Shown here: positions 25,511-32,345 of the stretch, in pieces
Position numbering within the stretch: the stretch's first letter is position 1
How the letters are laid out: each line of letters opens with the position of its first letter
NCBI GenBank assembly: GCA_025454155.1
Contig: JALOOZ010000008.1
Span: 1 to 40,177 of the forward strand
Direction of reading: 5' to 3'
From: Thermodesulfobacteriota bacterium
GTDB taxonomy: Bacteria > Desulfobacterota > Desulfomonilia > UBA1062
DNA length: 40,177 bases
Notes under the pieces: model-generated
Database searches by the model: none
The model's input: only the letters and a program-made list of their open reading frames with translations
Told to the model about the DNA's origin: nothing
Translations under genes and position numbers: made by a program

Positions 25511-26467
25511 CTAGGATTTCTTGAGGGCCTCCGTTGCCGCTGCCACTGCATCGGCTACGAGACCCCTGCACGATTCGGATGAACTGATGTGCTCCTGGAA
25601 ATCATCCCACCCCGAAAAGTCTTTTCCCGTTATCCGGCGGCATTCGAGGGCGGATCCCTTTTCCAGGAAACGCTGCACCACCCCCCTGCCGATGGCAAAG
25701 GTCTCGGGTCTTCCCCGATAGTCCCTTCTCAGGAGATTTGCATGCCCTGCGACGAACTCCTTGATGGTCCTGGGGTAACTCATATGCCTGATGTCCCATC
25801 CGAACACGAGGTTCACGGCCATCACCGCTCCGGCCATGGCCCCGCACACGCCTCCGCTGAGGGCGACTCCTCCGTCCAGGACGAAGGCTGTCTTCTCGAG
25901 CAGGTCATGGCCCACACCGGTGGCTTCACGGACACCCCTGAGGACCTCTGTGGCGCAGTGCAAGGCCTCCCCTCGAGCGCCCGAAGCGCTCCCCGGACAA
26001 CCAGAGAGGGGAACGGCCCTGGAGGATTGCAAATAGGAGGCAGCCTTGCCGATATGCCAGAAGCACCTGGCTATCCGCTCGCCCGGCAGGAGGTACTTAA
26101 ACCAGCTGCTGGCCTGGTAAAAATCCACGCCTGTCCTCTCCCGACAGTACTGTGTTGAAAAATTGTCATGGAACCAGTCCACATATGCACGGGCCTCCTG
26201 CATGATCGCCCTTTGGGCGTTCTCGCCCCCTGCACCGATGCTCTCGTGCCGCATGAGGGAGATGCCCAGGGCCCCGCCCGAGACGACTCCACAGGTGGAG
26301 CCCCTGGCCACCAGGCCCCCTTCCAGACCGGTGGCTGCCTTCAGATGCGTGTCATCTTGCCTGCCGGCGAAGTCCTGGACGACCTCCAGGGTTGCAAGTG
26401 CTCAATTGAGGTCGCGCAGGAGGTATGCGCTTCCTTTGATATTCCAGGGAGTGCCTGTGTGGTTCAC
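25511..26467 (-). CDS. C_GCAxxG_C_C-family protein, probable selenoprotein with Sec22 encoded by TGA
   Basis: The track ORF starts at GTG 26311, but the frame continues upstream through one TGA (26404-26402) to GTG 26467, giving 318 residues with Sec at 22. The read-through sequence (SAYLLRDLN, Sec, ALATLEVVQDF) is protein-like and has the look of the family's usual N-C-A-x-x-V-L. The protein is an internal duplication: Sec22...Cys59 (GSTCGVVSGG) in repeat one matches Cys171 (LHCATEVL)...Cys208 (GGVCGAMAG) in repeat two, both with 37 residues between. A SECIS-like hairpin follows the TGA. No signal peptide; glycine-rich segments may be membrane-embedded or buried. Probably a redox or metal protein of unknown substrate. 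It lies ahead of the arg operon. The GTG has a weak ribosome binding site. Confidence 0.8.
26374..26404 (-). promoter_or_regulatory. SECIS-like element directly after the in-frame TGA
   Basis: On the minus strand the TGA (26404-26402) is followed by 11 bases and then CCTGGA-GGTCG-TCCAGG, a perfect 6-bp stem with a 5-base loop. The GGTC in the loop matches the essential apical loop of the E. coli fdhF SECIS (as I recall it, ...GCAGGTCTGC...). The loop begins 17 bases after the TGA, within the spacing expected for bacterial SelB-binding hairpins. Confidence 0.7.
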
Positions 26468-27253: not shown

Positions 27254-27295
27254 CGATGAGTGGTGGTGACAGATAAAAAATTCGAGGAGGAAGTA

Positions 27296-27571
27296 ATGAC
27301 AAAAACGGATCTGGTTGAAGTGGTAGCCGGCAAGGGGAAGATCTCCAAGGCAGCAGCATTGGAAGCGGTGGATGCCCTCACTGACGTGATTGCCGGTGCC
27401 ATGAAGAAGGGTGACAAGGTCACCCTGGTAGGTTTCGGAACCTTCGTTGTGGCAAAGAGAGCTGCCAGAAATGGTGTGAATCCCCAGACCAGGCAGAAGA
27501 TAAAGATCAAGGCAAGCAAGGCCCCTCGATTCAAGGCAGGCAAGGCATTGAAGGACGCGGTCAATAAGTAG
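27296..27571 (+). CDS. HU-family DNA-binding protein
   Basis: 91 residues from ATG 27296, with GAGGAGG 5 bases upstream; the track start at 27260 is upstream of this site. TKTDLVEVVAGKGKISKAAA and VTLVGFGTFVVAKRAARNG are HU blocks, and RNGVNPQTRQKIKIKASKAP forms the DNA-embracing arm with the conserved proline. It bends and compacts DNA as a dimer. Four bases later comes the lysine-rich protein, so the two are probably made together as nucleoid proteins. Confidence 0.95.
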   Translation: MTKTDLVEVVAGKGKISKAAALEAVDALTDVIAGAMKKGDKVTLVGFGTFVVAKRAARNGVNPQTRQKIKIKASKAPRFKAGKALKDAVNK

Positions 27572-27575
27572 GACC

Positions 27576-28262
27576 ATGAAAAAGCAAACCCAGAAGAAGG
27601 CCCCTGCTGCTGCAGCGAAAAAGCAACCCAGGAAAAAAGAACCGCCTGCCCTCAAGAAGAAGCCCCCCCTGAAAAAGGCGTCTGCTGCAAAGGCTCCGAA
27701 GCAACCCAAGAAGAAGGCCCCTGCTGCTGCGGTTAAGAAGCAACCCAAGAAAAAAGAACCGCCCGCCCTCAAGAAGAAGCCTCCCCAGAAAAAGGCCCCT
27801 GCCGAAGCGGTAAAGATGCAACCCGAGAAAAAAGAACCGCCTGCCCTCAAGAAGAAGCCCCCCCTGAAGAAGGCCCCTGCCGAAGCGGTAAAGATGCAAG
27901 CCGAGAAAAGGGAGCTGGCCGTAGACGAGAAGAAGCAGCCAAAGAAAAAGGTGCTTGCTGTCGTCGTTCTCGGGTCACGATACAAGTGCTACAAGTGCGG
28001 AGCCAAGTTCTATGACCTGGGCAAACCGCAGCCCCTTTGCCCTTCATGTGGAGCCAACCAGAACGATGACGAGGCAAAGGGAACAGCCAGGAAGAAGAAA
28101 AAGCGACGGTCCTTCTCCCCTGGAAGATCATATCACGCCATAACTGCCCCCGAAGAGAAGGATGATGCCATTGAAGTCGTCAATGAAGTTGACGCCGAAT
28201 ATGCCCTGGACATAGATGACATTGTCCTGGAAGGGAATGAGGACACCGAGAAATCTGAATAG
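27576..28262 (+). CDS. Lysine/proline/alanine-rich histone-H1-like protein with FYDLN zinc ribbon
   Basis: 228 residues. Residues 1 to about 130 are a low-complexity basic tail with three to four repeats of a roughly 27-residue unit around KKEPPALKKKPP and KKAPAEAVKMQ. Then comes a zinc ribbon (YKCYKCGAKFYDLGKPQPLC then PSCGANQ), matching the FYDLN-acid family with two C-x2-C pairs. The end is strongly acidic (about 190-228). The tail resembles histone H1 and bacterial H1-like proteins and should bind DNA or RNA; the acidic end may regulate it. It sits 4 bases after hup. The repeats invite length variation. The large antisense ORF over it is a shadow of lysine codons. Confidence 0.82.
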   Translation: MKKQTQKKAPAAAAKKQPRKKEPPALKKKPPLKKASAAKAPKQPKKKAPAAAVKKQPKKKEPPALKKKPPQKKAPAEAVKMQPEKKEPPALKKKPPLKKAPAEAVKMQAEKRELAVDEKKQPKKKVLAVVVLGSRYKCYKCGAKFYDLGKPQPLCPSCGANQNDDEAKGTARKKKKRRSFSPGRSYHAITAPEEKDDAIEVVNEVDAEYALDIDDIVLEGNEDTEKSE

Positions 28263-28386: not shown

Positions 28387-29601
<1,215 letters not shown>

Positions 29602-29623: not shown

Positions 29624-31549
29624 CTATTTCCCAAACTCCTGGTCCCGGTGGAGCTCTTCCCAGAGCACCCGCTGGTACTTCTGGAGATCGGCGGAGCTCA
29701 TGGCCGTGCCCCTGGCCTCGTACATGCTCTGGATGGCCTTGACCACGTCCTCGAAGCGGATGTCCAGGCCCAGGACCCCCACCATGTCTAGGTCGTCGTT
29801 GAGGACCGGTGCCGAGACCGTCATGATGAGCGCCCCGGTGATGCGAGAAGTCGTCACCCCGCTCACATGGAGCCTGCCGTCGGCGCTGGTCCTGATGAAC
29901 CAGTCCCGGTCCGAGCAGTCCTCGTGCTCCTTCATCTTGTGCATGAACTGGCCCTTGTACTCCGGCTGGGTGATGTTCCTGGTGATCTTGATGCCCCCCA
30001 GGTCCGTGACATAGGCGAACTGGATGAACGGGTACTCCTTGATGAACTCGGTGATGACAGGCTCCTGCCTCCGGGGGTTCATGCCCTTCACGTCCCCGTT
30101 CTCCAGGAGCTTCTCGATGAGCTGGCTGGCGTACTCCCGGGCCTCGTACTTGATGAGGTCGAAACCGGACAGGAAGAGGTGCGGGATGAACCGGGTGGCG
30201 AGCTTCTCCAGCTCCTCGTCGGAGAGCGAGGTGTTTCGGCCGTCCTCGTACTCCCTGACCACCTGCTGGTACATCCGGGCGATGCCCGGGTGCCGCTTGT
30301 CGATCCGTTCGTTCTCCTTGAGCTTGAAGTGGGTGTTGACCCAGTGGGCCAGACCCGCCTTGCCGGACTTGTCCGTGATGGCGATCTCGATGGGGCGGTT
30401 CAGGATCCTCCCGGTGTCGAAGATGTTGTAGATCTCCTCGTTCTTCACCAGGCCGTCCGCGTGGATGCCGGCCCTGGTCACGTTGAAGTTCCTGCCAACG
30501 AAGGGGTAGTTACCCGGGATATGGTATCCCAGCTCCGTGCTCACGTACTCGGACAGCTCGGTGATGGCCCGGGTGTCGATGGAGTCGTCGTCGTGACCCC
30601 GCAGCGACAGGTACTCGAAGACCATGGCCTCGACCGGCGTGTTGCCGGTGCGCTCGCCGAATCCGAAGATGGCGGCGTTCACCGCGCTGCACCCGTAGAG
30701 CCAGGCACTGGTGGCGTTGGCCACGACCTTGTGGAAGTCGTTGTGCCCGTGCCACTCGAGCAGGTGGGAGGGTACGCCGGCGTCGTCCACGAAGGCCCGC
30801 ACGAGCTTGTCAACGGCCCGGGGAAGCGCCGCGCCCGGGAACGACACCGCATAGCCCAGGGTGTCGCAGAGCCTGATCTTCACGTCGATGCCGGACTCGT
30901 CGCGGAGCCCCATGAGCTCGCGGGCAAAGGGGATGCAGAACCCGTAGATGTCCGCCCTGGTCACGTCCTCGAAGTGGCACCGCGGGGTGATGCCCTGGCT
31001 CAGGGCCTCCTTGACGATGCCCAGGTAGTCGTCCAGGGCCTTGCGGCGGGACCAGCCGAGCTTGAGGAAGATGTGGTAGTCGGACACCGAGGTGAGGATG
31101 CCGGTCTCGTCGATGCCCATGGCCCTGACGAGCTTGAGATCGTCCCTGTGGGCCCGTATCCACGAGGTCACCTTGGGAAAGTTGTACCCCTTGGCCAGGC
31201 AGGCCTCCACCGCTGCCTTGTCCTTCCTGGTGTAGAGGAAGAACTCGCTGGCCCGGATCAGGCCGGAGTCCCCGCTGATGCGGTGGAGAAAGTCGTATAT
31301 GCGCTCGATCTGCTCCACGGTGAACGGCGTCATGGACTGCTGCCCGTCCCTGAACGTGGTGTCGGTGATGAAGATGTCCTCCGCAGGCTGGATGGGGATC
31401 AGCCGCATGTCGAAGTCGATCTTCGGCACCTCGTCATAGTTGAAGAGCGCGCGGTAGTAGTTGCCCTTCTCGATCTCCTGGATCCCGGTTGCGAAGTTCT
31501 TGCCCGGTGTGTAGTAGAAAACCCTTTTCTCAGGATCCCATCTGCCCAT
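29624..31549 (-). CDS. DRE-TIM acyltransferase (candidate Re-citrate synthase) with Cache-like C-terminal domain
   Basis: 641 residues. The TIM-barrel domain (about 50-400) has the DRE-TIM hallmarks: [38 protein letters not shown] (H-x-H-N-D) and [14 protein letters not shown]. This is the family of isopropylmalate, homocitrate, citramalate and Re-citrate synthases; proteins of this type are often mislabelled. From about 510 the chain carries a Cache/PDC-like domain ([44 protein letters not shown]), usually found in extracytoplasmic sensors. There is no signal or membrane segment, so the sensor domain is cytoplasmic and may be allosteric. Placement before icd favours citrate synthesis from oxaloacetate and acetyl-CoA. 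Citramalate or another product is not excluded. One base separates it from the LysM gene. Confidence 0.75.
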
Positions 31550-31550
31550 G

Positions 31551-32345
31551 TTATTTCTTCTTCCCTTTCGGCGTGTACGCGTCCTTGGGTATCTTCTCCG
31601 GCTCCGGCGCCCCCGCCTCCCGGCGGGCCTCGACGATCTCGTCGGTGGTCATCTCGCGGGGTATCTTGAGATCCTGCCCGGCGTACAGGTCCTTGGGATC
31701 CTTGATCTGGTCGCGGTTGGCCTTGTAGATCAGGGGCCACATGAAGGAGTCGTTGTAGACCTCATGCCGTGCCGCGATGCTCGGCAGGGTGTCGCCCTTC
31801 TTCACCACGTAGATGCTCGGATAGACCTCCAGCACGGACGGCTCCGCGCTCGACCGGATCTCCTCGCGCTTGACCGCGATCTCGCTGCCGATCTCCTCGA
31901 TCATCTTCTGCTTCTCCTCGGCGGTCTTCTTCACGGTGTCCTGGTAGGCGACGTTGAACCTCACCGCAAGAGACTGCAGCTCGGAACCGTTCTGGTCGGC
32001 ATAGGCGGTCTGCATGTCGAGGTAGATGAGCAGGAGCGAAAAGGCCTCCCTCTTCGCATACTCGAAGCCCGAGATCTCCACGACCTTGGAGAGCTGCTCG
32101 GAGGCCCCCTTCATGATGGACCGCATCTCCAGCTCTGCGGACCGGAACTGCTTCAGCGCCTCTGAAAAGGCCTGGGCAGCGGCAGCATCGTCCTTGTCGT
32201 CCATGGCATCCAGCGCCTTCCTGAAGCTCTCCACTCCCTGTTTCAGGGACTCCCCGCGGGGATCGGAAACGTCCGGTGCGCTCTTCACCGTGGCGCAGCC
32301 GAACAGGAACAGTACCACAAGGCCGACTGTGAGGATCTTTTTCAT
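31551..32345 (-). CDS. LysM-domain lipoprotein
   Basis: 264 residues. A lipoprotein signal ([18 protein letters not shown]) has lipobox FGC at Cys17. A long alpha-helical region follows (about 30-165) with TPR-like heptads ([20 protein letters not shown]). One LysM domain comes next ([20 protein letters not shown], then [10 protein letters not shown]), and the tail is basic. LysM binds the GlcNAc backbone of peptidoglycan, so this probably links the outer membrane to the wall or guides a wall enzyme. It is translationally linked to aspS (ATGA overlap) and to the DRE-TIM gene (TAA-C-ATG), an odd place for an envelope protein. Confidence 0.85.

Follow-up and report, generated by a model that had tools for sequence, protein, structure and literature searches.

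We identified a 641-residue protein that is best read, from its sequence and genomic setting, as a Re-citrate synthase of the C. kluyveri/Syntrophus type, and found that it carries a Cache domain at its C-terminus. The protein is encoded in a 40,177-nt stretch of a Thermodesulfobacteriota genome, referred to here as a whole as the window. Taking all lines of evidence together, we consider it somewhat probable that the enzyme uses this cytoplasmic Cache domain as a carboxylate-binding allosteric sensor. The preliminary description of this DNA had given the span of the gene without its strand; the span is unchanged, and the reading frame runs on the minus strand from 31549 to 29624, while plus-strand frame 1 across the same positions is interrupted by an internal stop. 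The gene and its immediate neighbours are as follows.

29624..31549, minus strand: Re-citrate synthase-type gene, 641 aa, with ATG at 31549 and stop codon at 29624-29626
28387..29601, minus strand: NADP-isocitrate dehydrogenase gene (TIGR00183, 3.5e-200)
31551..32345, minus strand: LysM-domain protein gene, directly upstream of the Re-citrate synthase-type gene with a 1-bp gap

A gap of 22 bp separates the end of the Re-citrate synthase-type gene from the downstream NADP-isocitrate dehydrogenase (IDH) gene, and the two probably form one operon. The LysM-domain protein gene probably shares the transcription unit and is given as context only. Elsewhere in the window, we noted a putative redox protein of the C_GCAxxG_C_C family (25511-26311, minus strand) that adjoins argB and argD genes, and an HU-type DNA-binding protein followed after 4 bp by a Lys/Pro/Ala-rich, histone H1-like repeat protein (27260-28262, plus strand), the latter carrying an acidic tail and a segment, CxxC...CxxC, that resembles a zinc ribbon. 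The 641-aa protein had no match in the defence library, and its plasmid matches were distant synthases, none of which covers 80% of the query.

The assignment of the N-terminal part to the citrate-synthase-type DRE-TIM enzymes, already made in the preliminary description, agrees with an HMGL-like Pfam match and with intact catalytic motifs in the following features.

30542..31372, minus strand: catalytic DRE-TIM barrel (HMGL-like), residues 60-336 (Pfam, 2e-28)
31337..31351, minus strand: RDGQQ active-site motif, residues 67-71, invariant in 64 homologues
30737..30751, minus strand: HGHND metal-binding motif, residues 267-271, invariant in 64 homologues
30182..30529, minus strand: accessory subdomains, residues 341-456, containing the invariant H363 and Y374 and a weak HCS_D2 match at 352-405

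In the alignment of the 64 homologues, GER-GN, H363 and Y374 are as free of variation as RDGQQ and HGHND, and naturally short homologues stop near residue 456, at the end of the accessory subdomains. The nearest folds of the predicted model in the PDB (Foldseek) are homocitrate and isopropylmalate synthases; the matches listed comprise synthases and related aldolases and lyases, and are uninformative on the Cache fold.

Homocitrate and isopropylmalate synthases also head the NCBIfam models for the synthase part, which would fit an enzyme that uses a 2-oxo acid other than oxaloacetate, that is, a homocitrate, isopropylmalate or citramalate synthase. All of these scores, however, lie far under the curated cut-offs (142.9 bits against 462.9 for the NifV model), and separate LeuA and CimA genes are present elsewhere in the same genome. 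Because the neighbouring genes also belong to the TCA cycle and the Si-type citrate synthase tends to be avoided where the Re-type enzyme occurs, we favour Re-citrate synthase and regard the use of another 2-oxo acid as very improbable. Re-citrate synthase is a DRE-TIM enzyme related to homocitrate synthase and is frequently misannotated (PMC12016533). In a tree built without the characterised C. kluyveri and Syntrophus sequences, homologues from Bacillota and Desulfobacterota form one supported clade apart from LeuA and NifV. The window protein shares DRE-TIM kinship with the Re-citrate synthases of C. kluyveri and Syntrophus aciditrophicus, and short Bacillota homologues are 58-60% identical to it across the whole synthase part; these Bacillota forms are about 454-479 aa long and lack the Cache domain, whereas the window protein has 641 aa and carries one. 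Since relatives from Syntrophales/Syntrophaceae (L060, L067) have the domain, the assayed Syntrophus enzyme may carry it as well.

The link to the TCA cycle recurs in other genomes. Long forms adjoin IDH in the window's own family and in Desulfovibrio-like genomes, and the long form of a Syntrophorhabdaceae genome (L066) has a split aconitase and IDH as neighbours. Among the short Bacillota homologues, one (L113) adjoins aconitase and IDH and two (L115, L126) adjoin NADP-IDH; malate dehydrogenase is the neighbour of another short form (L033).

Of the 198 genomes of the phylum, 100 hold homologues at E<=1e-30, and these proteins are nearly always full-length. By citrate synthase content, 84 of the 198 genomes have only the Re-type, 77 only the Si-type (PF00285), 16 both and 21 neither. 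The two types exclude each other with an odds ratio of 0.05 and P=2e-19, a value to be taken as a guide only, as the 198 genomes are related and not independent. The source genome belongs to the 16 that encode both types, so the exclusion argument is weaker for this particular protein, and the Re-type enzyme is not the sole citrate synthase candidate there. The PF00285 citrate synthase of the source genome (PRK14032 group; G000:C219:2628-3764, L127) adjoins an iron-type alcohol dehydrogenase. A genome of the same genus (G069) has no match to the Re-type gene and holds the PF00285 citrate synthase only, indicating that the enzyme type varies inside the genus.

Beyond the accessory subdomains, the protein continues into the Cache/PDC-like domain that the preliminary description had recognised, with DRDWF and VLGLDIRF both present.

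29735..30172, minus strand: C-terminal Cache/PDC domain with its leading helices, residues 460-605 (Pfam, PDB profile search and AF2 model)
29897..29914, minus strand: SDRDWF, residues 546-551, the expected carboxylate-binding signature (R548, W550), aligned with PctA R126/W128 and KinD DRSFF
29627..29734, minus strand: C-terminal tail, residues 606-641, a predicted low-confidence helix (pLDDT 31-59), variable among homologues

The Pfam family MCP-like_PDC_1 (PF22673) matches residues 521-601 at 34.6 bits against a cut-off of 27, and dCache_1 matches 479-604 at 27 bits, under its cut-off of 45. The match is not due to chance, because PF22673 is found in 58 of the 64 homologues, a count equal to that of the long forms, and purifying selection acts on the domain (see below). 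In a profile search of the PDB, the nearest solved structures were sensor domains of chemoreceptors and of the sporulation kinase KinD: Tlp3 (4xmq, 4.7e-11), KinD (6.7e-10), PctA (5.4e-7) and PctC; the cytoplasmic YkuI (2bas, 5e-4) matched as well. The LeuA regulatory (dimer) domain had no Pfam match in the 641-aa protein or in the 64 homologues. Pfam, the homologues and the PDB profile search thus indicate a Cache fold rather than a LeuA fold or no sensor fold, the two outcomes that the preliminary description had set against its reading. Structure prediction, which it had proposed as a check, points the same way: the AF2 model from the 64-row alignment, used in place of a single-sequence model (pLDDT 38), has a mean pLDDT of 89 and a pTM of 0.73 from a run without inter-domain confidence, and block means across the Cache region are mostly 85-95. 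Two helices (462-482 and 492-505) precede the Cache domain. The domain itself is modelled with confidence, led by a long helix and closed by paired long strands.

LeuA carries a C-terminal regulatory domain in the corresponding position. The window protein has the same catalytic fold and accessory subdomains as LeuA, but the LeuA regulatory domain is missing and the Cache domain stands in its place. As described earlier, there is no membrane helix, the highest 19-residue hydropathy in the 641-aa protein being 1.25; the protein therefore departs from the usual extracytoplasmic placement of Cache domains between membrane helices. In the paper that defined the superfamily, 78% of Cache domains are extracellular and two families are mainly intracellular (PMC4822843). 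The YkuI_C domain is, like the window domain, a Cache at the C-terminus of a cytoplasmic protein, but it is attached to an EAL signalling protein, whereas the window domain is attached to a primary metabolic enzyme. No other PF22673 match was found elsewhere in the source genome, and thus no in-genome source of the domain.

The fusion is widespread. All 58 aligned long forms, drawn from many phyla, have the Cache domain, and long forms were found in Desulfobacterota, Nitrospirota, Spirochaetota, Lentisphaerota, Omnitrophota, Elusimicrobiota, Margulisiibacteriota and others. Within the phylum, nearly all complete matches reach residue 600 or further, with natural short forms in two genomes (G016, G034). 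Almost all matches in Nitrospirota are long or cut short, while the 19 positive genomes among 200 Bacillota have short forms only. Spirochaetota are mixed; two of their genomes (G502 and G538) each encode the enzyme twice, once fused to the Cache domain and once lacking it, and offer a natural comparison. The fused form is standard in the Desulfobacterota/Nitrospirota-type branch of Re-citrate synthase. The earlier proposal that a metabolic enzyme had acquired a sensor holds as far as the fusion goes, but not as an individual acquisition; recent acquisition in a single lineage is ruled out by the spread of the fusion. On an unrooted tree of the synthase part, two changes between long and short suffice. 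Rooting on an outgroup that is distant and unreliable places short forms within long ones, which would mean loss of the Cache domain; its gain is also possible. Of ten close pairs, nine have a dN/dS of 0.02-0.23 across the Cache domain and one is saturated, indicating that the domain is in use and not decaying.

For the ligand, we compared the pocket of the long forms with those of PctA and KinD. R548 is kept in 53 of the 58 long forms, and W550, S568 and D596 in all 58; these residues align with PctA R126, W128, D146 and D173. All 58 long forms, like KinD, have Ser where PctA has Asp146, the residue that holds the amino group of the ligand, and all 58 have Phe (F551) where PctA has Tyr129. 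The full PctA-type dCache_1AA amino-acid motif is absent from the long forms, which keep the equivalents of R126, W128 and D173 only. In PctA, R126 touches the carboxyl group of the ligand, and D173 is a key residue of the amino-acid motif (PMC10104139). KinD binds pyruvate (PMC8534201), and its dCache is placed among those that bind carboxylic acids (PMC8534201, PMC8694187). In the KinD sensor (4jgo, the second-best PDB match), DRSFF and SYSSRITG align to SDREWF and YTSKITG, and the solved form 4jgq has Ala at the Arg aligned with R548. In KinD, the sensor is a double Cache that a membrane kinase exposes outside the cell, whereas here a single cytoplasmic Cache is joined to a metabolic enzyme.

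Because the exchanges at the Asp146 and Tyr129 positions form a pattern common to pyruvate-binding KinD, a carboxylate or 2-oxo acid is our leading guess for the ligand, ahead of an amino acid. Sensing of an amino acid such as glutamate would amount to end-product feedback, as exerted by lysine on homocitrate synthase and by leucine on LeuA; it would suit the aligned and retained R126, W128 and D173 positions and the place of glutamate as the logical end product beside IDH. With Ser and Phe fixed in every long form, however, we regard it as quite unlikely. In the window's own family (L004, L005, L006), the otherwise conserved Asp564 is replaced by Gly and the pocket Tyr566 mostly by Thr or Cys, and because of these changes the ligand of this family may differ from that of the rest or may have been lost.

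In the sensor explanation that we favour, the DRE-TIM barrel would condense acetyl-CoA and oxaloacetate to citrate, which aconitase and the probably co-transcribed isocitrate dehydrogenase would carry on to 2-oxoglutarate and glutamate. The Cache domain would serve as a cytoplasmic small-molecule sensor in the place of the leucine-sensing domain of LeuA, tied to the accessory subdomains by helices. R548 and W550 would most likely bind a small carboxylate, be it pyruvate, another 2-oxo acid or a TCA acid, and binding would shift the linker helices (462-505) against the accessory subdomains, adjusting the active site and its activity. The data show the domain make-up, the intact catalytic motifs, the conserved fusion, the gene neighbourhood and the avoidance of Si-citrate synthase, while the substrate of this protein, the class of ligand and the allosteric coupling are inferred; allosteric control of this kind is a plausible proposal. 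The main rival keeps the Re-citrate synthase and gives the Cache domain a structural role in dimer or tetramer assembly or in stability, with no regulatory ligand. PAS and Cache domains are often dimerisation modules (PMC8694187), and natural short forms do without the domain. The window's own family has changes at two positions of the pocket, and identity with distant homologues is lower in the domain (34-50%) than in the barrel (63-70%). Yet the ligand-facing R548, W550, S568 and D596 are among the best conserved residues of the domain, which a scaffold alone would not need, and we consider a purely structural role somewhat unlikely.

A literature search, with the primary reports on the enzymes of C. 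kluyveri and Syntrophus outside its scope, yielded no paper describing the fusion and none that pairs a Cache domain with either Re-citrate synthase or 2-isopropylmalate synthase. Pfam detects the domain, and enzymes of this family are known; the combination seems to be undescribed. Carbon enters the oxidative branch of the TCA cycle through citrate synthase, and we know of no account of how the Re-type enzyme is regulated in sulfate reducers and syntrophs. The conserved sensor domain offers a direct handle on this regulation, through a ligand search and through comparison of the natural long and short forms. We see an even chance that, throughout a branch of Re-citrate synthase that spans some eight or more anaerobe phyla, a cytoplasmic Cache domain controls the enzyme by reading a central carboxylate. 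If so, the Cache sensor would directly provide the allosteric control of an enzyme of primary metabolism instead of serving in signalling, and the known uses of Cache domains would widen from signalling receptors to the control of metabolic enzymes.
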